From positions 1 through 64,000 of the IMG/VR virus record IMGVR_UViG_3300025896_000030: a stretch of DNA of 64,000 nucleotides; one strand, written 5' to 3'. Under the pieces are notes generated by a model. The model was not told the DNA's origin. It saw nothing but the letters and a program-made list of their open reading frames with translations, and did no database searches. Positions 28,107 through 58,335 of the stretch are shown here, in pieces (positions within the stretch are counted from its first letter, which is position 1; each line of letters opens with the position of its first letter). The stretch is from a virus. The position numbers and the translations under genes are program-made.

Positions 28107-28706
28107 TCACGGGGTGTCTGTGTGTTCCATTACGTTCACACAGTGACCGACAGAAAATTCAGGAATGTGTGTCACCATGACGAACTGAAACCCCAGTTCG
28201 TCGGCTAACTGTTCGAGAACCACCCTCATTGTTGTCCGGTATTCAACAGAAAGGAAGCGGAACGGCTCATCGAGAAAAAGCACCGGTCTAAGTTTGGGGC
28301 GGTTTAACATGATCACCGCGCATCGTAATGCGAAGGAGGCCACATCGATGATTCCTCCACCTGAAGCAAACATGGGATCGACTTCCTCTCCATTCACGAC
28401 GAAAACAAGACGAGCTTCCGTCTTTCCTCGCTTCTCCTCGAACAAGATATTGAAATCAGGAGCTTCTTTTCCAAACACAGCTTTCAAGCAGCGGGAAACG
28501 ATTCCTGCGATGTGGGAATGAATCGTCTGCTGGACTGTGGCAGCGAGCGTCTGGACGATCTTGCGAGCTTCCGTTGCATGCGTCAGCTGCTCCTCTGCTG
28601 CTGCTGCCTGTGCGCGTGCATCGCGCCGTGCCGATATAGCGTGTTGCCGTTTGGAGATCAATACGTTCAGCTCCTGCCGGAGATCGACGGAATTAAATGT
28701 TTCCAT
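28107..28706 (-). CDS. SbcC/Rad50-like ATPase, C-terminal half
   Basis: 199 residues. Residues 1-80 form the returning arm of a coiled coil; the rest is the second lobe of an SMC/Rad50 ATPase head: the ABC signature-like segment ASGGGIIDVASFALR (about 115-129), Walker B PVLFLDEPF (about 141-150) and an H-loop VMVTHIPEF. There is no Walker A in this protein; that is in the gene at 29853-30752. Together the two would make a complete head in trans. It is the last gene of the minus-strand operon. Confidence 0.85.
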   Translation of the reverse strand: METFNSVDLRQELNVLISKRQHAISARRDARAQAAAAEEQLTHATEARKIVQTLAATVQQTIHSHIAGIVSRCLKAVFGKEAPDFNILFEEKRGKTEARLVFVVNGEEVDPMFASGGGIIDVASFALRCAVIMLNRPKLRPVLFLDEPFRFLSVEYRTTMRVVLEQLADELGFQFVMVTHIPEFSVGHCVNVMEHTDTP

Positions 28707-28921
28707 TTTTTGACGAACTGCTTTTGGAGCGTTTCGATTTTCCCTTCCAGATCCTTGCTCTGACTTTCGTACTTTTCCAGAAGCTCTTTAGCCTCCTTCA
28801 AATTCCCTACGTCGAACTGGAGCCGCAAAGTTCCTATCGTCGCATCATACGCACCTCGTGCACGCTCGCGAGCGTCGCGAGCCTCTTCGACGGCTTCCCG
28901 TAACTGTTCGTATTCTTTCAT
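28667..28921 (-). CDS. Coiled-coil linker protein of the split Rad50
   Basis: 84 residues that are almost entirely heptad-like coil (EYEQLREAVEEARDARERA, LKEAKELLEKYESQSKDLE). It overlaps the ATPase C-terminal gene by 40 bases and its stop-start with the nuclease is also tight (28921). In a normal Rad50 this piece would be the arm just after the zinc hook, so it may be the middle third of the split protein. It has no catalytic motif. Confidence 0.65.
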   Translation of the reverse strand: MKEYEQLREAVEEARDARERARGAYDATIGTLRLQFDVGNLKEAKELLEKYESQSKDLEGKIETLQKQFVKKWKHLIPSISGRS

Positions 28922-29886
28922 CAGCGGTCGAGACTATCTTCTAGGATGCGGGAGACGGGAACAGGGACGTCGTGTTTTTTGGTGTACACATTTATGAGGT
29001 CTCTGAAATCCAACCTCTTAGTTTCCACTTCCTTTAGTATTTTAATGAAATCGCTTTGGAGAACGATGTTTTCCTCGGCTGCTTTGAGTATTGTACCATT
29101 GCTGATCCACAAGTCCTTTGAGGTGTCTAATTTATGGATATCTACAGTTCCATCAAAACGAAGTAGTCCCACATTCACTCCGTAATCACGCTCATCGGAT
29201 TTACGAGGAATGACACAACCGTTATTCCACACCCAGCAATTTCCGGTTTTCCAAAGAAAGGACTTATGGTTGTCACCAAACAAAGCAACCTCGTATCCTG
29301 ACAACACCTCTGCCATTCCGCGCACGCGCTCGCTTTCAGAGGCACCAGGATAGGAATTTCTGTCAGTTGCCCAAACGTAACGGTGGCATAGTAGCACATT
29401 AAGAGTGTCTTCCCGCCGCCCCCTGTACTTTTCGGGAACAGGAGGAATAGTCATTTCCCAATGACACGCTGTCACACGCAGACGAGGGGTGTGGGCATCG
29501 GAAAATAAGAATATACTATCCCCGTTTTTTATGTGGTTGAACTTCTGCGCCATCACGCATGTCCAATACGCTGTGTCCTTCAGCCTTCCAGGAGCATGGT
29601 AGGGCGTATCATGTTGTCCTGGAATCGTGTACCATTTTTGTCGTATGGAATCCAAAACAAAATTGATAAGTTCGGCAGGAGAATTCCACTTATCGAACAA
29701 GTCACCTGCGCATAGGATGGGAACGTTATCGTGCATTCTCGATATGCTTTCGATTTCCTCAATGTACCTGAGCTGTGCTGCGTACCAATCTGGCTCATTC
29801 GCCCGAGCAATTGGTAAGGTGTGGGTGAAATGAATATCCGAGCAGAGGATGGCTAAGACAGGATTTTCTGTTTGCATAGGGGACAT
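28921..29886 (-). CDS. sbcD: SbcD/Mre11-like metallophosphoesterase nuclease
   Basis: 321 residues. The metal-binding motifs occur in order: CSDIHFTH (DxH), CAGDLFDKW (GDxxD), IPGQHDTPYH (GNHD position with Gln for Asn, as in some phage homologues), a histidine in LLCHRYVW and GDNH near residue 220. It should cleave DNA ends with the Rad50-like partner and act in recombination-dependent replication. The start overlaps the upstream gene by 34 bases; a second in-frame ATG lies nine bases later. Confidence 0.85.
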   Translation of the reverse strand: MSPMQTENPVLAILCSDIHFTHTLPIARANEPDWYAAQLRYIEEIESISRMHDNVPILCAGDLFDKWNSPAELINFVLDSIRQKWYTIPGQHDTPYHAPGRLKDTAYWTCVMAQKFNHIKNGDSIFLFSDAHTPRLRVTACHWEMTIPPVPEKYRGRREDTLNVLLCHRYVWATDRNSYPGASESERVRGMAEVLSGYEVALFGDNHKSFLWKTGNCWVWNNGCVIPRKSDERDYGVNVGLLRFDGTVDIHKLDTSKDLWISNGTILKAAEENIVLQSDFIKILKEVETKRLDFRDLINVYTKKHDVPVPVSRILEDSLDR

Positions 29887-30752
29887 ATATTTTTGCCAAA
29901 TTTGGCGTGAAATTTTTTTTCTAGGGAGTCTAGTGTTTCAGAACTATTCTCGATTTTTTGCTTGGCTCGTTCCAATTGAGTGATGTGGTCTCGCAAAATT
30001 CGGATGTCTTGATTCTTGGAGGCTTTAAGACTTTGGAGATTGTCGATCGCGGTGAAATGGGGCAAATCCATTTCCGCGGTCTGTTTGTGATCCCTCAGTT
30101 TTGCCGCTAGCCTGTCGAGGTCCATGAAGTTGTTCAACACCTTCGACTGTCTTTTCTCCAGTTTTTCGATTTCCGCCAATTCAGCGTCAGCCTCTATGGT
30201 CCAGTTCAACTCCTTTATTTTGACTGTCTGCCTGTCGATTTCCTCCTTGTGTATCTCGACTGCCTGCCGGGACCTTCTGACCAAATTGGAGCAGTAATTC
30301 AGGGAGCGATCTATGGTGGACAGATCGACAATTTCATTAAGTCGTTTGCTGACCTCGGTAGCAGGCAAAGAAAACCAGAAAGGCGCATCGTGTTGAAACT
30401 GGAAATTGAGATCCGACAGGCGTAATGATCTCTGCACGGACTCAGGAATGCTCGATCCGATCGCCTTGAGCTTTTCCCCGTCCTGTACATATGCGTTTGT
30501 TTTCTTGTCGCGTACACGACGAATGGAGAGATCATCGGTGCGCAGGCGGACATCGCAGCTGTCCTCTCCGTGCCGAATGAAGCTCGTGCCCGTCGGACGA
30601 TTGAACACCAGCCAAGCAATCGCCCGAATGACAGACGACTTGCCTGTGTTAGTGGGTCCGACAATCGCGGTTATCTGGTCGTCAAAGGAAATTCTCAGTC
30701 GCGTGTGCTTCTGGAAATTTCTGACTAGAACGTCTTTGAATTTGGACAACAT
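29853..30752 (-). CDS. sbcC: SbcC/Rad50-like ATPase, N-terminal half with zinc hook
   Basis: 299 residues. The Walker A GPTNTGKSS (about residues 32-40) and a Q-loop-like FQFQHDAPFWFS lie in the first ATPase lobe. A coiled coil from about 165 to 285 leads to CPLC near the C-terminus, the zinc hook that joins two Rad50 arms. The protein ends just after the hook, whereas normal SbcC/Rad50 continues back through a second coil to Walker B. The missing part is encoded by the genes at 28667-28921 and 28107-28706, with the nuclease gene between them. Confidence 0.85.
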   Translation of the reverse strand: MLSKFKDVLVRNFQKHTRLRISFDDQITAIVGPTNTGKSSVIRAIAWLVFNRPTGTSFIRHGEDSCDVRLRTDDLSIRRVRDKKTNAYVQDGEKLKAIGSSIPESVQRSLRLSDLNFQFQHDAPFWFSLPATEVSKRLNEIVDLSTIDRSLNYCSNLVRRSRQAVEIHKEEIDRQTVKIKELNWTIEADAELAEIEKLEKRQSKVLNNFMDLDRLAAKLRDHKQTAEMDLPHFTAIDNLQSLKASKNQDIRILRDHITQLERAKQKIENSSETLDSLEKKFHAKFGKNICPLCKQKILS

Positions 30753-40665: not shown

Positions 40666-41154
40666 ATGGCGATAAACATTCCTCTAGCCTTAGCCAACGC
40701 CAACAGTCATCGTCTTTCGTGCACGAAGCTCTACGTTGACTTTCCTTTTGCCCACCGCCAACACATGCACGATGGACATTGTAGCAAGATCCACGGGCAC
40801 AATTGGAGCTTTGAATTTACCTTCACCGCTGATCATGTCGATTCGTGCGGCTTCGTCATCGACTTCGGGAAAATGCAGTGGCTCAAAGGATGGCTTACTA
40901 AATGGTTCGATCACACCTTGGTTTTGAATTCTACTGATCCCCATTTGGACTATATAAGGAAATCGCTCGATGACGTGCCTTTGGCAGACATCATGGTCGT
41001 CCCAGACGCCTCCTGTGAAGGACTCGCGAAGTGGATTTTTGAGCAGGTGGATCTTTTGATCCTCGAGCATGTGGGAGTCAGTCGAGGTGTGCGACTGATC
41101 AGGGTCACCGTCAAGGAGGACAGCAAAAATTCAGCGACCTGGGAGGTTCTGTGA
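40666..41154 (+). CDS. queD: QueD, 6-carboxy-5,6,7,8-tetrahydropterin synthase
   Basis: 162 residues. Zinc histidines H30 (FPFAHRQ), H43 and H45 (IHGHNW) and the catalytic cysteine C39 (GHCSKIHGH) are present, and GFVIDFGKMQWLKGWL and FDHTLVLN follow as in the QueD/PTPS family. It converts dihydroneopterin triphosphate to 6-carboxy-tetrahydropterin, the second step after FolE in preQ0 synthesis. Its start is on the preceding terminator's T-run and its end overlaps the next GTG. Confidence 0.9.
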   Translation: MAINIPLALANANSHRLSCTKLYVDFPFAHRQHMHDGHCSKIHGHNWSFEFTFTADHVDSCGFVIDFGKMQWLKGWLTKWFDHTLVLNSTDPHLDYIRKSLDDVPLADIMVVPDASCEGLAKWIFEQVDLLILEHVGVSRGVRLIRVTVKEDSKNSATWEVL

Positions 41155-41390
41155 GTTCCAACAAAAACATATTGGTCGATTTTTCCAATATAGCTAACGA
41201 GACCATCGACAAGGCTAAATCGGGAACGCGCATCGATCGCACAGACATCACCGATCGAGCCCGCAAGAAACTGGGCAAGGATGCGTTCACCGACATGAAC
41301 GCGCATGACATGCTTACCGTCTTGTGTCGTGCCCGCTCCGATGTGGTCGTTATCAAAAAGGGCAAGGAAGGGGGAACATTCAAGCGATGA
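41151..41390 (+). CDS. Small hypothetical protein between QueD and QueE
   Basis: 79 residues from GTG 41151 (GTGA overlap with QueD) and an ATGA overlap with QueE. It is Lys/Arg-rich with DFSNIANETIDKAKSGT and a DAFTDMNAHDMLTVLCRAR helix. The coupling suggests a role in the pathway or in timing, but no family recognised. Confidence 0.6.
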   Translation: MSSNKNILVDFSNIANETIDKAKSGTRIDRTDITDRARKKLGKDAFTDMNAHDMLTVLCRARSDVVVIKKGKEGGTFKR

Positions 41391-42100
41391 AACACCTTCC
41401 TGTGCATGAGCGTTTTCTGTCCTTCCAAGGCGAAGGTGTGCATATGGGACGGGCGGCTTTCTTCATCCGCCTGTTCGGCTGTCCTCTGCATTGTCCCTGG
41501 TGCGATTCAGCGGGCACGTGGCATAAGGACTATGTGCCCGACAAGGTCGATAAATTTACTCCTGCCCAATTGGTGCAAGAGGTGCTGGAGACAGAAGCTA
41601 AATTTGTCGTCATCACCGGGGGCGAACCCGCCATCCATGATTTGATGGATCTCACTGTCTTGTTCCTCAGTTTTGATATTCGCGTCCATATCGAGACATC
41701 GGGAGCGTTCCCGCTAAAGGGAATGTTCGATTGGGTGACCGTCAGTCCAAAGCGCGCCAAGGCTCCTTTGCCTGAGGTGCTGCATTTGGCAAACGAGTTC
41801 AAGCTCATCATCGAGGGCAAGGATGACATCGCGTACTGGATGAATAATTTTCTTGATGGCGCGCTGCTTGTTCGAGCGGCAGCGAACAAGGACATAAACG
41901 AACCTGCTGTCTGGCTTCATCCCGAATGGTCTAAGCGAAACGATCCTGAGGTCCTTTCGATAATTTCCTCAACCGTTCGTGATCGAGGCGATCCTTTTCG
42001 AGCGGGTTACCAACTCCATAAACTATATCGCGCCGACTCCTTGGACAAGAGAACTTCTCCTCTCGCCCCATTGGGAGGCAACCCAAAATTAGGATATTGA
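41387..42100 (+). CDS. queE: QueE, 7-carboxy-7-deazaguanine synthase
   Basis: 237 residues from ATG 41387 (ATGA overlap). The QueE signature SFQGEGVHMGRAAFFIRLFGC leads into the radical SAM motif C32-x3-C36-x2-C39 (CPLHCPWC), and VVITGGEPAIHD and HIETSGAF occur in the core. It uses SAM and Mg2+ to contract 6-carboxy-tetrahydropterin to 7-carboxy-7-deazaguanine. It is of normal length and looks complete. Confidence 0.9.
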   Translation: MKHLPVHERFLSFQGEGVHMGRAAFFIRLFGCPLHCPWCDSAGTWHKDYVPDKVDKFTPAQLVQEVLETEAKFVVITGGEPAIHDLMDLTVLFLSFDIRVHIETSGAFPLKGMFDWVTVSPKRAKAPLPEVLHLANEFKLIIEGKDDIAYWMNNFLDGALLVRAAANKDINEPAVWLHPEWSKRNDPEVLSIISSTVRDRGDPFRAGYQLHKLYRADSLDKRTSPLAPLGGNPKLGY

Positions 42101-42991
42101 ATGAACCTTCCCGATATACAAAAAACGATCGACACGCGTGGCGTCCCGATTGATCGCGTGGGCGTGACTGGAATCAGGCTGCCCATTCGTCTTCTCCGCA
42201 AGCCTACGATGGACGAAACGTTGAAGGAAGACTGGCAGGACTCGGTAGGAGTTTTTGAGCTTTCTTGCAACCTTCCCCGCGATGTGAAGGGCACACACAT
42301 GAGTCGATTTACGGAAGTGTTGATGGAACACATCGATAAGGAAAGTGGTGTATTTTCTCACACTTCACTCGCCAAGGTCGCTGATGTGTTGATGGAAAGA
42401 ATGCAGGCGTCATGTGTGGAGGTCAGTGTCAAGGCAGTGTATTTCATGCCTCAAGTCTCCCCTGTGACAGGCAGGAAAGGGATCGCGCCGATCGACGTGG
42501 GACTGTCAGTGTCACGCTACAATTTCGAGGGCACGATTGGGCTTGTGGAGGAGTGGATGACATCGGTTCAGATCGAGGGGATGACCTGCTGTCCCTGCTC
42601 GAAGGAGATAAGTGATTACCACCATTCAACGCAAACGGGGAAAGGCGCACATAGCCAGCGGTCTATGGTGTCACTACAAATTCATCACGCTGCGTTGAAT
42701 ACCATTTGGTTTGAAGACCTTGCAGGCGCGATACAAGCAGCCTATTCGTCTCCTGTTTATCCGGTCCTCAAGAGACCGGATGAAAGAGCGGTGACGATTG
42801 CTGCCTACGAAAATCCCAAGTTCGTGGAGGATGTGATTAGGGATGTCGTCGTGAATCTGGGAGCACTTCACCTGAAGCAACTGGGAGGTACAGAGTCGTG
42901 GCAATGCAACGTTCGCGTGTGCAATGCTGAGAGCATCCACTACCACGACGCGTTCGCTTCCCTCGCCGTCCGCTTTCCTGCCCTGCTGTGA
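42101..42991 (+). CDS. folE2: GTP cyclohydrolase FolE2 (type IB)
   Basis: 296 residues, starting directly at the end of QueE. GVTGIRLPIRLL, HMSRFTEVL, MTCCPCSKEISDY and GAHSQRSMVSLQIH are the FolE2 family blocks; the CCPCS cysteine and following His bind the metal. It opens the pathway by converting GTP to dihydroneopterin triphosphate. Its presence next to QueD and QueE gives the phage its own first step, independent of host FolE. Confidence 0.9.
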   Translation: MNLPDIQKTIDTRGVPIDRVGVTGIRLPIRLLRKPTMDETLKEDWQDSVGVFELSCNLPRDVKGTHMSRFTEVLMEHIDKESGVFSHTSLAKVADVLMERMQASCVEVSVKAVYFMPQVSPVTGRKGIAPIDVGLSVSRYNFEGTIGLVEEWMTSVQIEGMTCCPCSKEISDYHHSTQTGKGAHSQRSMVSLQIHHAALNTIWFEDLAGAIQAAYSSPVYPVLKRPDERAVTIAAYENPKFVEDVIRDVVVNLGALHLKQLGGTESWQCNVRVCNAESIHYHDAFASLAVRFPALL

Positions 42992-44175
42992 ATCACGTTT
43001 TTCGGAAGTCAAAAAACGGATCGAATCACAGACTGGAGGGCGTTGTCACGTCATCTAGGTCTCTGTTCATCGATTCGGGCGCGCATTCTCTGTATAACAG
43101 GGAGGTGGATACATACGAGAATGAACTTGTGACTTCCTACAGTCAGCGTTACGATTACTTCGATCTCAAGGACAAAAATTCTGACTTCCGAAAATACGTT
43201 CGCAGGTATGTGAAGTTCATCAAGGAGGAAACGTCTGACAAGATCGATTACTATGTTACTCTGGATGCGATTTACCATCCTGATAAGTCTTTGGAGATAT
43301 ACGACTTTCTAGTGAATGAATACGGGCTTTCCCCGGTGCCTGTTGTCCACTGCGAAACCCCTTTCAATTTCGTGGATGAATATATCGAACGGGGTTGCAC
43401 GTTTTTGGGTATTGGAGGTCTTGGGCAAGGAGTAAGTAAGAGCAGATTTTTTGAATGGGGAGACCAGCTGTTTAACTACATTTCTGCGGGAAAGGATCGC
43501 ACGCCTGTTATTAGGACTCATGGATTTGCTATGACCAGTTGGGAATTGCTGCTTAGATACCCCTGGTGGTCGGTTGACTCTGCCTCGTGGCTGAAAGCTG
43601 CTGCATTTGGACAGGTGTACGTTCCTAATTTCAGAGATGGTAAATTCGTGTTTGAGGAACGTAATAGGCCGTATACAATTACGGCCAGCGCACGAAGTCC
43701 AAATGCTAAGGAAAAGTGGCACATTTCCAATTTGGAAGGAGAAGTTAGAAAAATCGTGAGGGACTGGTTTGACTTCATCCGCATTGATATTGAGGGGAAT
43801 CATGGAATACTAAACAGCCTAGAGGCTCGCTCCCGAGCTAACCTGCTATTTTTTACTAGGATGGCGAGGGAGCTTGTGTTCCCTCGCTCCTGTTCCACAT
43901 TTAATATCAAAGGCGTGTTTAATGGTCCATGCGCTGATGGTCAGAAAATAAAAGCTCCCAAGAGTTACGACAATCCTTTCGTGGAGCCGCATAAATTGCA
44001 GATTTACTTTTCGGGTCTTTCAGGCGGTGGAATATACCCGGAGCACATGATCGCCGAGAAGTCGCCCGCCATTATGTTGTCCTTCGATAACTTACGGGAC
44101 CAGATGAAACGACCCTACGATAAAAGAGCATCGACCGCTTGGATCAGATTCAAAGCCCACAGAAACCAAAAATGA
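42988..44175 (+). CDS. dpdA: DpdA-like DNA guanine transglycosylase (TGT-related)
   Basis: 395 residues from GTG 42988 (GTGA overlap with FolE2). LFIDSGAHSLY (about 27-36) is like the TGT DSGGFQ site with D29 as likely catalytic Asp, then DYYVTLDAI, GLSPVPVVHCETPF, FLGIGGLGQGV, all in order for phage DpdA2-like enzymes with a TIM-barrel core. These swap guanine in DNA for a 7-deazaguanine base. It follows QueD-QueE-FolE2 in one operon, which supports the function strongly; subfamily is not settled. The end overlaps the clamp gene. Confidence 0.75.
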   Translation: MNHVFRKSKNGSNHRLEGVVTSSRSLFIDSGAHSLYNREVDTYENELVTSYSQRYDYFDLKDKNSDFRKYVRRYVKFIKEETSDKIDYYVTLDAIYHPDKSLEIYDFLVNEYGLSPVPVVHCETPFNFVDEYIERGCTFLGIGGLGQGVSKSRFFEWGDQLFNYISAGKDRTPVIRTHGFAMTSWELLLRYPWWSVDSASWLKAAAFGQVYVPNFRDGKFVFEERNRPYTITASARSPNAKEKWHISNLEGEVRKIVRDWFDFIRIDIEGNHGILNSLEARSRANLLFFTRMARELVFPRSCSTFNIKGVFNGPCADGQKIKAPKSYDNPFVEPHKLQIYFSGLSGGGIYPEHMIAEKSPAIMLSFDNLRDQMKRPYDKRASTAWIRFKAHRNQK

Positions 44176-45221
44176 GAACCATAAATCGCGCCGAACTTTT
44201 GTTGAAATTGGAGATGGTAGCAGCAGGACTTTCTTCTAAGGAAATCCTCGAACAGAGCGCCTGCTTTGTTTTCACGAAGGGTCGCGTATTGACCTTCAAC
44301 GGCCAAATCTCCTGCTCCGTCGCCTGTGATATTGGCTATGAAGGGGCGGTGCACTCGCAAGCTCTGCTTGGAATTCTGCGCAAGATTTCCGACGACACGC
44401 TTGAGGTGGAACACAGACAACAGAAAGGAGACCTGAAGTTCGTGGGAGAGTTCAAGTCCATGGGCATCACGGTGCAGAACACAATCAAGCTCCCACTCGA
44501 TGGCCTTACTCTGCCCAAGGAGAGTGATTGGAAAAAACTAGAGGACGGATTTACTGAGGCAGTCGAGATGTCGGTGATGTCTGCAAGCAAGGACGAGAGT
44601 CAATTCAACATCACGTGTGTCCACATTTCCCCTAAGTTCGTGGAGGGCTGTGACAACAAGCAATTCACTCGGTATTTTGTCGATACTCCCGTTGAGTCTA
44701 AAAAGGGTGTCCTTGTACGTTCCACGTCAATGCGACATGTACCTTTGCTTGAGATGGTCGAGATAGCGGAGACGCGATCTTGGATTCATTTCAGGAACGG
44801 CGCAGGTCTCGTGTTCTCCTGTATAAAATACGACGATTCCTACCCGAACTATGACGACCTATATAAATTCAAGGGAACAAAAGTAGAGCTGCCTCGATCC
44901 ATTGAAAGTGCCGCCGACAAGGCCAGCGTGTTCGCTGAGGCGAATACAGACAAGGAAAAATCTTCCGAGGCTGAATTGATCATCACCCTGACGGAAGGAA
45001 AAATGCGTGTGAGAGGAGAGGGAATGTCAGGGTGGTACCGACAAACGCTCGCCGTCGATTACACAGGTCCGGATATTCAGTTTCGCATTCCTCCCAAGTT
45101 GTTAATCGACATTTCCAAGCGGTTCATGCGGGGTGAACTGACGGAAGGCAAACTCAAGATCGAGGGAAAGAATTGGGTGTACGTGACGGCGTTGTCGGCG
45201 GGTAACTCTAGCGATGTCTAG
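44172..45221 (+). CDS. DNA sliding clamp (DnaN beta-like)
   Basis: 349 residues from ATG 44172 (ATGA overlap). The N-terminal block INRAELLLKLEMVAAGL and the three similar beta-rich domains with IPPKLLIDISKRF and GGxM-like ends fit the phage DnaN-like clamps, slightly shorter than bacterial (about 370). It encircles DNA and tethers the polymerase. With the clamp loader at 47945 it suggests an independent processivity system. Confidence 0.7.
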   Translation: MRTINRAELLLKLEMVAAGLSSKEILEQSACFVFTKGRVLTFNGQISCSVACDIGYEGAVHSQALLGILRKISDDTLEVEHRQQKGDLKFVGEFKSMGITVQNTIKLPLDGLTLPKESDWKKLEDGFTEAVEMSVMSASKDESQFNITCVHISPKFVEGCDNKQFTRYFVDTPVESKKGVLVRSTSMRHVPLLEMVEIAETRSWIHFRNGAGLVFSCIKYDDSYPNYDDLYKFKGTKVELPRSIESAADKASVFAEANTDKEKSSEAELIITLTEGKMRVRGEGMSGWYRQTLAVDYTGPDIQFRIPPKLLIDISKRFMRGELTEGKLKIEGKNWVYVTALSAGNSSDV

Positions 45222-46434
45222 GGGATTCTTCGCAGAATCGACGACAGCGAGCCGAGCGCCTACAAGCGTCATCCCGCAATGCGGCGTCTGTGGGCTCTCA
45301 GAGCTTTGCCTGTCTCCCAAGATGAGAGTGGGTGGCGAAGGGAGAAAGAAAATCTTGATCGTAGGGGAAGCCCCGGGCAGACAGGAGGACGAGAAAGGAA
45401 CTCAATTCGTTGGGGTGTCGGGGCAGAGACTCAAGGAAGCACTTGAGGAATGTGGCATCAGCATGCGCAGGGATTGCTGGACAACTAATGCCCTGATCTG
45501 TCGCCCACCGGGTAACAAGATCAAGGACAAAAACGCGATCGCCTACTGTCGTCCGAATCTGCTGCGTTCTATTCGGGAACTCAATCCTGTTATCACGATC
45601 CTTTTGGGAGGATTAGCTGTTCGGTCTCTCATCGTTGAAAGTTGGGGAAAGGAAGAAATCGGGGAGGTGAATCGATGGGTGGGTTGGAGGATCCCGTGCC
45701 AGAAATTCAACACGTGGATTTGTCCGACGTGGCATCCTAGTTACGTCATTCGCACAGAGGAGGAGACAAGGAAGCCCTTTAGTTTTTTCGACAAGCACAT
45801 CAAACGAGCTTTGGAATTCGATTCGCATCCCTGGCCAGACGGAGCACCTGATTGGAGTGGCAAGGTCAGGACGATTTTCGACACTCGCGAAGCTGCGCAG
45901 ATCGTAGATCAGTGGTGCGATCTGGGAGGAACTTTTGCCTTCGATTATGAAAACACCTGCCTCAAGCCTGAGTATGTAGGCGGTGAAATTGTCTGTGCTG
46001 CCTTGTGTCGTGAGGGGAAGGAGACGATCGCTTTCCCTTGGCATGGAGACGTTGTCGATGCGTGCCGAAGGATTCTCCGATCGAAAAAATGTGCGTTCAT
46101 TGCCTCCAACATGAAACACGAGGACAGGTGGACGAGATGGGCTTTTGGAAAGCCTGTGAGAAATTGGGCGTGGGATACGATGATTGCCGCGCATGCCCTC
46201 GATAATAGGGAAAAAATTACAGGGTTGAAGTTTCAGGCGTTCGTGAATTTTGGAATGCCTTCCTACAATGAACACATCGAGGAATTCCTGAAGACTACGG
46301 GAGACACGAAAATAAACCGTGTGAAGCAAATAGAGCTGTCCCAGCTGCTTAAATACTGCGGACTTGATGCCCTGCTGGAATATAAGCTCGCTGTCGTGCA
46401 GTGCCGCCAACTCGCTAGGATGAATTTGTCATGA
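45214..46434 (+). CDS. Family 4 uracil-DNA glycosylase fused to 3'-5' exonuclease
   Basis: 406 residues. Residues 1-210: UDG family 4 with C23-x2-C26, C96 and C112 as [4Fe-4S] ligands (96 to 112 is the normal 16), GEAPGRQEDEKGTQFVG (motif A, 51-67) and CPTWHPSYV (motif B). Residues 235-400: a DnaQ/PolA-type exonuclease, FAFDYENTCLKPEYVG (DxE) and, later, TMIAAHALDN and LKYCGLDAL. It overlaps the polymerase by ATGA. SPO1-type polymerases have UDG, exo and pol in one chain; here the chain is cut between exo and pol. Confidence 0.8.
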   Translation: MSRGFFAESTTASRAPTSVIPQCGVCGLSELCLSPKMRVGGEGRKKILIVGEAPGRQEDEKGTQFVGVSGQRLKEALEECGISMRRDCWTTNALICRPPGNKIKDKNAIAYCRPNLLRSIRELNPVITILLGGLAVRSLIVESWGKEEIGEVNRWVGWRIPCQKFNTWICPTWHPSYVIRTEEETRKPFSFFDKHIKRALEFDSHPWPDGAPDWSGKVRTIFDTREAAQIVDQWCDLGGTFAFDYENTCLKPEYVGGEIVCAALCREGKETIAFPWHGDVVDACRRILRSKKCAFIASNMKHEDRWTRWAFGKPVRNWAWDTMIAAHALDNREKITGLKFQAFVNFGMPSYNEHIEEFLKTTGDTKINRVKQIELSQLLKYCGLDALLEYKLAVVQCRQLARMNLS

Positions 46435-47942
46435 GCATTCGTCCTGACGTTCATTTCGGCTATAATCTCATTCATCAGGGCATCGCGACCTTGTCCCGAA
46501 TTGAGTCGAACGGTATTCGCGTGGATCGCAGGTACCTGATGAAAGCGATCTCCTCGACCGAAAAGGAGATCGCTGTGATCAAGTCGCGGATGAGAGACAC
46601 TCCTGTATGGGATCTATGGACGAAGCGTTACGGAGTGAAAGCCAACATCGACTCTGACGATCAGCTGGGGCATATTCTTTTCGACTCCAAGGAAAAGATG
46701 GGGTTGGGATACAAGTCTACAGAGAGGACTGCTTCGGGAAGATATAAGGCAGACGTTGCAGCCTTGGAAGGAATCGATCTCCCTTTCATCAAGGATTTGA
46801 TCAGGGTGGGAAAACTAGACAAAGCACTTTCCACGAATTTCAAGGGAATCCTGCGCGAACTAGACGGAGACAATTTCGTCCATCCTGTATTCAACCTTCA
46901 TATCGCCCGCACGTTCAGATCCTCGAGTGACAATCCTAATTTCCAGAACATTCCCGTCCGAGATGAAGACATCGCCAAGTTAGTGCGATCCTGCTACATC
47001 GCCCGAGACGGACACGTTTTGGTGGAGAATGATTTCAAGGGAATCGAGGTAGGTGTATCTGCTTGCTACAATCGAGATCCTGCGCTGATCGCCTATGTAA
47101 AGGACGCATCACTCGATATGCATCGGGACATTGCGATGGAGCTTTTCTTCCTGAGCAAGAAACAGATGTCCAAAGCGATTCGACATGTCGCCAAGAACAA
47201 ATTTGTATTTCCGCAGTTCTATGGATCGTGGTATATTGCTTGCGCGAAACAGATATGGGAAGAAATCGAAAAACGTGATTTGAAGCTCACTGACGGCACT
47301 CCGCTCAAAAAACACCTTTATTTGAATGGTATTAAGGGTCTAGGCGCCTGTGATGCGTCGATCAAACCCGAGCCGGGGACGTTTGAGAGACACGTGCAGG
47401 AAGTGGAGCGATCTTTTTGGGACGTTCGCTTCAAGGTCTATAAGCAGTGGAAGAATAAGTGGTGGGAGGAATATCAACGGCGAGGATTTTTCGACACCTA
47501 CACAGGATTCAGGATTTCAGGTCCGATGGACCGAAATCAAGTCATCAACTACCCTGTCCAAGGAAGCGCGTTCCACTGTCTGCTCTGGTCTCTTGTTCAA
47601 ATCCAGAAGGAACTTGATGATCGAGGAATGAGAACTGTTCTCGTAGGACAGATTCACGATTCGATCATTGCGGATGTCGCAATCGATGAAATTGACGATT
47701 ACCTGGCGATAGTAAAAGACGTGACCGAGGTCAGACTAAGGAAGCACTATAAATGGATCAACGTTCCTCTTTCCGTCGAATGTGAAATCTGCCCGATAGG
47801 AGGGACGTGGTTCAACAAACGGGAGGTTGTGATCAAGGATGATTCGTTTAATTGGAAATCCAAAGACGATAAACATAATTGGTCTGGCAGCGCCCGGGGT
47901 CTCATAAACTTTTGGCAAAAACTTGAAAAGGAAGCAGCGTAG
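46431..47942 (+). CDS. DNA polymerase, family A polymerase domain
   Basis: 503 residues. PolA motif A is VENDFKGIEVGV with the catalytic Asp; motif B is RHVAKNKFVFPQFYG; motif C is GQIHDSIIADV, where the usual HDE reads HDS. A TASGRYKADVAALEG-type O-helix-proximal block and RSSSDNPNFQNIP are also normal for PolA. It has no own exonuclease; the fused UDG-Exo protein upstream is likely to supply it. Ends with TAG three bases before the clamp loader start. Confidence 0.85.
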   Translation: MSIRPDVHFGYNLIHQGIATLSRIESNGIRVDRRYLMKAISSTEKEIAVIKSRMRDTPVWDLWTKRYGVKANIDSDDQLGHILFDSKEKMGLGYKSTERTASGRYKADVAALEGIDLPFIKDLIRVGKLDKALSTNFKGILRELDGDNFVHPVFNLHIARTFRSSSDNPNFQNIPVRDEDIAKLVRSCYIARDGHVLVENDFKGIEVGVSACYNRDPALIAYVKDASLDMHRDIAMELFFLSKKQMSKAIRHVAKNKFVFPQFYGSWYIACAKQIWEEIEKRDLKLTDGTPLKKHLYLNGIKGLGACDASIKPEPGTFERHVQEVERSFWDVRFKVYKQWKNKWWEEYQRRGFFDTYTGFRISGPMDRNQVINYPVQGSAFHCLLWSLVQIQKELDDRGMRTVLVGQIHDSIIADVAIDEIDDYLAIVKDVTEVRLRKHYKWINVPLSVECEICPIGGTWFNKREVVIKDDSFNWKSKDDKHNWSGSARGLINFWQKLEKEAA

Positions 47943-56872: not shown

Positions 56873-57095
56873 TGTGCTTACTTTCGGTATGTTATTAGGA
56901 CCCGTGGTCATTCTATTGTAGGCGGGAATTCTTCTGTTGGAATTCTTTCGCAAGGAGGATCTTTTGGGAAAAGTTGTGACTGCCATGATATACCTTTCCT
57001 TCATCGGTCTGCTTCTGTCCTTAGCCAGCTGTGGTCTCCAAGCGATTAAAAAAGAGCATGAAAAACAAAAAGCCCAGATTGAGATCACTAGGTAA
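56865..57095 (+). pseudogene. Small membrane protein interrupted by one in-frame TAG
   Basis: From ATG 56865 the frame runs to TAA 57093-57095, but TAG at 56919-56921 breaks it at codon 19. Read across it, residues 5-27 give one continuous membrane segment (LTFGMLLGPVVILL, X, AGILLLEFF) followed by a second (MIYLSFIGLLLSLASCGL) and a Lys/Glu tail. The part after the TAG has no good start of its own near its beginning. It overlaps QueF by 38 bases. Confidence 0.5.
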
Positions 57096-57555
57096 GAAGG
57101 TCACGAGTTTTGAGGGTTTCGACACCTTCCTCAGACCTGCTAATACCGTCTTCGTATCGTGCATTTCCGACGAGATCACCGCTAACTGTCCAGTCACGAA
57201 TCAGCCTGACTGGTATCTGGTGGAAATCAGGTATATGCCGGACGAGCTTTGCATTGAGAGCAAGTCCCTAAAGCTCTATCTTCACAGCTTTCGGAACGAA
57301 GGCATGTTCTGTGAGGAAATGGGATCACGAATCGCCACGCATATAATGGAGGCAGTCGAAGCCTATGCCGTCGCCGTCGCGATCAAGCAGAAGTCACGTG
57401 GAGGCGTGTCGATCGTTTCTCGTTCCTATGTGGAGAACACAACGAAAATTGAGAAATACGGTCAGGCAAATCACGTGTGGACTATATGGCATCACAACCT
57501 GAATTGCATTCGCTCCTGTTCCACTCCCATTCAGTCTCCCACCTACTCCTACTAA
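57058..57555 (+). CDS. queF: QueF-like NADPH-dependent preQ0 reductase
   Basis: 165 residues from ATG 57058, equal in length to the Bacillus enzyme. C44 in TANCPVTNQPD and D51 match the thioimide Cys and the acid Asp. ESKSLKLYLHSFRNEG (67-82) is the QueF NADPH motif. The following FxE position is FCEE: E86 is kept but C85 replaces the usual His. It should reduce preQ0 to preQ1, or, if the changes matter, make another 7-deazaguanine. Six bases before QueC. Confidence 0.8.
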   Translation: MKNKKPRLRSLGKKVTSFEGFDTFLRPANTVFVSCISDEITANCPVTNQPDWYLVEIRYMPDELCIESKSLKLYLHSFRNEGMFCEEMGSRIATHIMEAVEAYAVAVAIKQKSRGGVSIVSRSYVENTTKIEKYGQANHVWTIWHHNLNCIRSCSTPIQSPTYSY

Positions 57556-57561
57556 ATTACC

Positions 57562-58335
57562 ATGAGAAAACGCGCCGTTGTATTATGCTCCGGAGGACTC
57601 GATTCCACAGTCCTCCTTCACTACGCTGCCAAGCAACTAGACATGGACATTGTCAAGGTGCTTTGCTTCAATTATGGATCGAAACATAATAAGCGCGAGG
57701 CTGCTTATTCGGTCTGGCAAACAGGACAGGTAAAGAAAGCAGTGGTCGACGCAGGCAAGCCCTTCTCCCCGATCACGCAGGAAAGACATTCGCGCCTTGA
57801 TCTACCGTTCATCAACGAATTTTTCAAGTCGTCCCTGCTCAAGAGTGGCGGGACGATTCCCGAAGGTCACTACGCGGACGAGAACATGAAATCTACCGTC
57901 GTGCCCTTTCGCAACGGAATCATGCTGTCGATCGCTACGGGGTTCGCTGAATCCCTCGACTGTGACAGAGTCCTCATCGCCAATCATGCGGGAGACCACG
58001 CGATCTACCCCGATTGCCGGACAGATTTTATTTCCAAAATGTCAGCTGCGATGTGTCTTGGAACCTACAAGAATGTCATGATTCACGCTCCTTTCTCTGC
58101 CATGACGAAGGCGGAGATCGTGAGAATGGGCTCTCTGCTGAGCGTGGACATGGCGATGACATGGTCATGCTATAAGGGTGGAGAACTGCATTGCGGGAAA
58201 TGCGGCACGTGCATCGAGCGTCGTGAGGCGTTTCATCTCGCGGGCATTCCGGATCCCACTGAATACGAGGCGGGCGCGCCTACGCTCGAGGAACTCATAT
58301 CCTGCGATTTCAAATACGAAGCGACATCCCTCTGA
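57562..58335 (+). CDS. queC: QueC, 7-cyano-7-deazaguanine synthase
   Basis: 257 residues. PP-loop CSGGLDSTVLLHYA (9-22), FNYGSKHNKRE, STVVPFRNGIMLSIA and the zinc site CYKGGELHCGKCGTC near residue 205 are the QueC family motifs. It turns 7-carboxy-7-deazaguanine into preQ0 using ATP and ammonia. About 15 kb away from QueD/QueE/FolE2, but together they complete the route. A small insertion lies around the ITQERHSRLDLPFINEFF region. Confidence 0.9.
   Translation: MRKRAVVLCSGGLDSTVLLHYAAKQLDMDIVKVLCFNYGSKHNKREAAYSVWQTGQVKKAVVDAGKPFSPITQERHSRLDLPFINEFFKSSLLKSGGTIPEGHYADENMKSTVVPFRNGIMLSIATGFAESLDCDRVLIANHAGDHAIYPDCRTDFISKMSAAMCLGTYKNVMIHAPFSAMTKAEIVRMGSLLSVDMAMTWSCYKGGELHCGKCGTCIERREAFHLAGIPDPTEYEAGAPTLEELISCDFKYEATSL

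Follow-up and report, generated by a model that had tools for sequence, protein, structure and literature searches.

What does a phage gene that lies among 7-deazaguanine synthesis genes do with the base that they would supply? The question is raised by bases 1-64000 of the 67,762-bp IMG/VR virus record IMGVR_UViG_3300025896_000030 (hereafter the window), in which the gene at 42988-44175 encodes a 395-residue protein resembling the DNA transglycosylase DpdA. A preliminary description read the locus as a phage system for 7-deazaguanine DNA modification. Our analysis supports this reading, the surrounding replication module being syntenic with that of phages of proven 7-deazaguanine DNA (such as 9g). 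The description missed the circular permutation of the DpdA itself. The explanation that we favor, with a probability of about three in four, is a self-sufficient phage 7-deazaguanine DNA modification system with a circularly permuted DpdA, probably fused from a split form. FolE2, QueD, QueE and QueC would convert GTP to preQ0 (7-cyano-7-deazaguanine), QueF would probably convert preQ0 to preQ1 (7-aminomethyl-7-deazaguanine), and DpdA would exchange guanines of the phage DNA for that base. DNA modified in this manner would be shielded from host restriction. We infer both that the phage DNA is modified and that preQ1 is the base. The coordinates of the features are collected in Table 1.

The 395-residue protein matches PHROG 887 (E 5e-28) and no family of Pfam or NCBIfam. 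The residues D72, D114, H196 and D215 of the 9g DpdA align with D29, D93, H178 and D197 of the window protein. H196 tells DpdA from DpdA2 (Vibrio phage nt-1 type), which lacks it (PMC6884629), and the window protein has H178 at this place. A tblastn search with the protein matched 216 phage records, every one at less than 60% identity. A sequence search of the PDB with the DpdA profile returned no relative. With Foldseek, most of the best matches to the structural model of the window protein were tRNA-guanine transglycosylases (TGTs; E 0.016-0.16), the top row being a homocitrate synthase; the best match to a model of a DpdA of canonical strand order was the archaeosine TGT (prob 1.0, E 0.0014). 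An assembly error behind the 395-residue frame was considered and rejected, as a second IMG/VR contig (L002, 24.7 kb) carries a DpdA that is 100% identical throughout.

The order of the barrel strands sets this protein apart. Residues 18-296 cover positions 48-305 of a profile made from 18 DpdAs that carry strands β1-β2 at the N-terminus (N-fused DpdAs), and positions 1-47, which hold β1-β2, are missing. The window DpdA does not have the canonical barrel order, in which β1-β2 is N-terminal. A hidden Markov model (HMM) built solely from the modules that canonical DpdAs carry at their N-terminus matched window residues 337-372 (HMM positions 1-35) at an independent E-value (iE) of 0.004 (Z 14,000, about 14,000 open reading frames, ORFs). 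The same HMM found 76 stand-alone ORFs at iE<0.01 and none among reversed ORFs. Only this module-sized HMM recovered the C-terminus of the window protein; with an HMM of the whole N-fused protein it did not emerge as a second domain. In profile-to-profile alignment (hhalign), the N-terminal modules matched the C-terminal and stand-alone modules with a probability of 95. The AlphaFold2 (AF2) model of the window DpdA (predicted template-modelling score 0.78, mean predicted local distance difference test, pLDDT, 78) has the core strands, a disordered linker at 299-334, and module strands at 338-341 and 361-365; the corresponding strands in the N-fused relative L034 are at 2-6 and 22-26. MAFFT could not align the small proteins to the window C-terminus, and they were excluded from the AF2 alignment. 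Judged from its sequence, the window DpdA is a circular permutation, in which barrel strands 1 and 2 have moved from the N- to the C-terminus. The TGT-type barrel would be composed of strands 3-8 from residues 1-296 and strands 1-2 from residues 337-395, with a flexible linker between them, and the module would complete the barrel in three dimensions.

The relatives of the window DpdA offer a route to this arrangement. Among 95 distinct viral DpdA loci, 60 are split, with the β1-β2 piece of about 55 residues as a separate gene, 12 are N-fused, 7 are C-fused, and in 16 the module was undetected. All of the module domains (141/141) are on the same strand as the core, and none was found in reversed ORFs or in 19 DpdA-free control loci. 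In the closest relatives of the window the separate gene is directly downstream of that for the core. The distance from the core stop codon to the module start is -8 to +60 nt in 21 loci, and the commonest arrangement is an overlap of 4 nt (ATGA/GTGA). L011 and L129, two contigs of the closest relative, both have an intact split junction, and the ratio of nonsynonymous to synonymous substitution rates of the module is 0.07. In the core tree the window groups with the split L011 (Shimodaira-Hasegawa-like approximate likelihood-ratio support 98). The tree, many branches of which are weak, entails at least 21 changes among the N-fused, C-fused and split states, and the scatter of the C-fused forms on it suggests that an adjacent module was fused independently several times. 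The permuted form would most likely have arisen by fusion of a split DpdA with its coupled downstream module, as in the sisters L011/L129. Programmed frameshifting or read-through was considered for the split genes and is not favored, as many modules are 140-1500 nt away or multi-copy; in L011/L129 the core frame closes with tandem stops ahead of the module. Similar split loci are seen on contigs binned with metagenome-assembled genomes (MAGs) of Firmicutes, Sulfuricurvum, Spirochaetes, Aenigmatarchaeota and Thermoplasmata, and these loci are probably viral. A tblastn search of the stand-alone modules against cultured phages gave nothing convincing. The 59-residue hypothetical protein ZHS_62 of Edwardsiella phage ZHS (L003:9545-9724), encoded near dpdA, is module-like, with a weak HMM match (iE 2e-4).

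When the viral and MAG contigs are taken together, 30 have more than one module, the range being 2-7, and in 24 of these 30 each copy belongs to a different sequence cluster. Several clusters recur: ATWLxxxxxGxxLTK in 13 contigs, GNFP in 11, ATTAPGNE in 7 and GVPGG in 6. In one locus a single DpdA core lies amid seven different stand-alone β1-β2 modules (L037:1672-3986). Two phages have two tandem DpdA cores each (L028:8959-11256 and L026:9929-11849); in L028 each core is followed by its own module or modules, including a 116-residue two-module protein. In L061:3823-5166 two β1-β2 modules stand in tandem at the DpdA N-terminus. A Pfam search with ten small proteins, nine of which are modules, gave no family for any module, and one module weakly matches positions 10-47, the N-terminus, of the DpdA PHROG. 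In published TGT structures, including that of Zymomonas mobilis TGT, the β1-β2 piece lies at the nucleotide pocket, next to the guanine that is the target, and the conserved module motifs IYxSG and IMLSF appear to lie at the corresponding strand ends. As the TGT structures put the piece at the pocket, a swappable β1-β2 unit would sit where the nucleic-acid context is read. It may be that the small copies act as interchangeable subunits that set specificity, and the split phages could pair one core with alternative modules, possibly for modification of different sequence contexts. In its fullest form this is a tentative proposal, to which we give somewhat less than even odds: DpdA would be a natural split triosephosphate isomerase (TIM) barrel, a single core serving several interchangeable quarter-barrels of about 55 residues, encoded in tandem (as many as seven in L037), each with a different sequence context or base preference, and the window would hold one such pairing frozen by fusion.

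The preliminary description placed QueD, QueE, FolE2 and DpdA in one coupled operon, and QueF and QueC at 57.1-58.3 kb. Both statements hold. The family matches are given in Table 1 (those of QueF and QueC being above the TIGR03139 and TIGR00364 cut-offs), and the junctions of the first cluster either overlap by 1-4 nt or abut (GTGA at 41151, ATGA at 41387, TGA/ATG at 42100, GTGA at 42988 and ATGA at 44172). These overlapping and abutting starts and stops therefore mark the first cluster as a tightly, translationally coupled operon, and QueF and QueC sit 13 kb downstream of it. The QueE start is the internal ATG at 41387, not the GTG at 41324, and the motif CPLHCPWC is retained. FolE2 (GTP cyclohydrolase IB) retains CPCSKEIS and GAHSQRS, with an 8-residue insert between them. 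With FolE2, QueD, QueE, QueC and QueF all present, the proposed route from GTP to preQ0/preQ1, together with DpdA, is complete in gene content. The 79-residue ORF between QueD and QueE has no family match and is present in the window phage alone among the 95 loci. Within the locus stretch examined, FolE2 is near DpdA in only 3 of the 95 loci, the window itself and the DpdA phages L012 (6376) and L025 (7952), which likewise have FolE2 instead of FolE. Among 50,697 phage records FolE2 had three matches, all unannotated Staphylococcus aureus or gut records; these look like host sequence and are probably not phage. FolE2 in place of FolE is a minor novelty within a known kind of system.

Several observations weigh against the explanation that we favor. 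The HMM match of the window module itself is modest (the iE of 0.004), the strength of the assignment deriving from its relatives, and the AF2 confidence for the module is moderate (pLDDT about 60-78). All Foldseek matches had E above 0.001. The 16 of 95 loci without a detectable module are a further point, and the sampling of loci was biased to window-like DpdAs, whereby the class proportions are not representative. Lastly, QueF has a cysteine in place of the histidine of its conserved FHE motif, which makes the formation of preQ1 uncertain.

This last observation bears on the alternative that survives best, which is quite possible, though we regard it as the less probable: the DNA modification would be the same, but the final base would be dPreQ0 or dG+ (2'-deoxyarchaeosine), with QueF inactive, acting on DNA-bound preQ0, or serving as an amidotransferase. 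The position of the FHE histidine is occupied by Cys94 (FCE) in the window QueF, and the histidine is replaced as well in other phages that have both DpdA and QueF, with FCE in L013, SCE in Mufasa8 and Funsized, and YQE in Cellulophaga phage phi38:2. QueF and QueF-L are, moreover, hard to tell apart by similarity alone (PMC6884629). On the other side, the alignment shows that the catalytic Cys53, Asp60 and the NADPH motif ESKSLKLY are retained, and the TIGR03139 score is above its cut-off. The QueF-encoding phages Dp-1, whose QueF is related, and HVTV-1 carry dPreQ1 (PMC6884629), and dPreQ1 is expected in the window phage because they do; the product is uncertain because of Cys94. We consider dPreQ1 the likely base, with this uncertainty. 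Among phage QueFs, those of L112, L114, L013 and L110 have Cys or Gln for the FHE histidine and retain the NADPH motif. The queF of L013 (L013:8563-9999) is split, directly before the catalytic cysteine, by an intein (PF14890 above cut-off, with an HNH endonuclease domain).

An alternative to the permutation, which we hold to be unlikely, is that the last 59 residues and the stand-alone proteins are an accessory domain, for example for binding of DNA or of the clamp, fused independently to either end of DpdA. The moderate pLDDT of the module, the disordered linker and the several copies of the small protein per phage are in keeping with such a domain. Against it, the module of the N-fused DpdAs, that of 9g included, is exactly at the TGT β1-β2 position and leads directly into strand 3. 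The DSG strand is preceded by about 17 residues in DpdA cores that lack an N-terminal module and by about 61 in the N-fused proteins. The core by itself gives about six barrel strands in AF2, and the N-terminal, C-terminal and stand-alone forms are homologous by profile and HMM.

The preliminary description had named a grouping of the DpdA-like protein with tRNA TGTs, together with a lack of DNA-specific features, as one finding that would count against DNA modification, and we looked for it. The protein does not match PF01702 (the same search was positive in 14 of 14 control genomes) and has no CxCx2C zinc motif, its only cysteines being at 122, 137, 302 and 315; tRNA-TGT identity was rejected on these grounds, together with the conserved 9g-type histidine and aspartates. 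A role of the pathway in tRNA queuosine/preQ1 or in the metabolism of the host, with the protein as a tRNA transglycosylase, is very improbable: the protein shares the TGT fold, and bacteria use the QueF/preQ1 route for tRNA, but its nearest characterized homologs are the DNA-modifying phage DpdAs (PMC6884629) and its gene sits in the replication module, by the clamp and polymerase.

Phage 7-deazaguanine systems as such have been described before (Hutinet et al. 2019, PMC6884629); the new element is the DpdA architecture. In the 9g/Queuovirinae DpdA cluster the bases are dG+ and dPreQ0 (Hutinet et al. 2019, PMC6884629), and DpdA is needed for dPreQ0 in phage CAjan (PMC6884629). Phages 9g and R7M and a Stenotrophomonas phage share with the window the order helicase, Que genes, GTP cyclohydrolase, DpdA, clamp and polymerase, and the 9g DpdA shares its His196 and aspartates. 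The likeness of the window to the Queuovirinae is one of local synteny, the DpdA identity being 26-32%. Compared to 9g, the window has FolE2 rather than FolE and a separate QueC and distant QueF rather than Gat-QueC, and strands 1-2 of its permuted DpdA are C-terminal. Streptococcus phage Dp-1 (QueF-QueC-QueD-QueE and DpdA; dPreQ1 by mass spectrometry, PMC6884629) has, as does the window, a preQ1-type set in which QueF adjoins QueC, but its QueF retains FHE where that of the window has FCE. Cellulophaga phages such as phi38:2 and the mycobacteriophage Funsized (QueF, DpdA and preQ0 genes) are of the same gene-content class, although the DpdA of phi38:2 is compact and has its module at the N-terminus, not the C-terminus. 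The nearest relatives are the split DpdAs of uncultured phages, among them L011, L012 and L041, whose modules are of the same sequence family; they are encoded by two genes, whereas the window has one fused, permuted gene. Bacterial and archaeal TGTs (PDB 1j2b, Z. mobilis TGT) have their fold in common with the window DpdA (Foldseek) and differ from it in the zinc motif, the PF01702 score and the strand order; TGTs are single-gene enzymes.

Table 1. Features of the 7-deazaguanine locus and of the adjoining replication genes (window coordinates).
Feature	Position	Strand	Basis
QueD (6-carboxytetrahydropterin synthase-like)	40666..41154	+	PF01242 (PTPS) 1.2e-23; phrog_2389 1.2e-33; relatives are PDB QueD
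79-aa ORF, function not assigned	41151..41390	+	overlaps QueD and QueE
QueE, radical-SAM 7-carboxy-7-deazaguanine synthase	41387..42100	+	phrog_2076 6e-35; PDB 6nhl 9e-22
FolE2-type GTP cyclohydrolase IB, replacing phage FolE	42101..42991	+	PF02649 8.6e-68; PDB 8g6c 1e-36
DpdA core, residues 1-296 (barrel strands 3-8; D29, D93, H178, D197)	42988..43875	+	N-fused DpdA profile positions 48-305
Linker, DpdA residues 297-336, predicted disordered	43876..43995	+	pLDDT <50 at 299-334
Relocated β1-β2 module, DpdA residues 337-395 (LQIYFSG...IMLSFDNL)	43996..44172	+	module HMM, hhalign, AF2
Probable sliding clamp	44172..45221	+	synteny only; ATGA overlap with DpdA
Uracil-DNA glycosylase-family domain and polymerase-associated region	45214..46434	+	PF03167 1.8e-23; phrog_17
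Family A DNA polymerase	46431..47942	+	PF00476 9e-47
QueF (type II/unimodular)	57031..57555	+	TIGR03139 E 3e-25, 88.2 bits over cut-off 86.9
QueC, 7-cyano-7-deazaguanine synthase	57562..58335	+	PF06508 2.8e-56; TIGR00364 above cut-off

The window phage is a tailed phage, because head, tape-measure and tail-fiber genes are present together with a replication set of primase, DnaB-like helicase, family A polymerase, UvsX-like recombinase and clamp loader. We found no evidence on its host. The gene 3' of DpdA most likely starts at the ATG at 44172; its product had no family match in library searches, and its position is that of the clamp of 9g/R7M. At 28107-30752 there are minus-strand genes amid an otherwise plus-strand genome, one of them with exonuclease/SbcC-like PHROG matches.

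The open-access literature that we searched, to which the search was confined, gave no description of a split or permuted DpdA, and a stand-alone quarter-barrel protein, often present in several versions, appears to be previously undescribed. Its recognition accounts for a family of small phage ORFs without a Pfam match, and annotation or searches that expect a full-length DpdA would mis-call such enzymes as truncated. If our reading is true, DpdA is a rare example from nature of an enzyme that occurs fused, split and permuted, with the split state as the bridge between the fused and the permuted ones, and a separate, duplicated and swappable gene for the substrate pocket would be a direct handle on the site specificity of DpdA.

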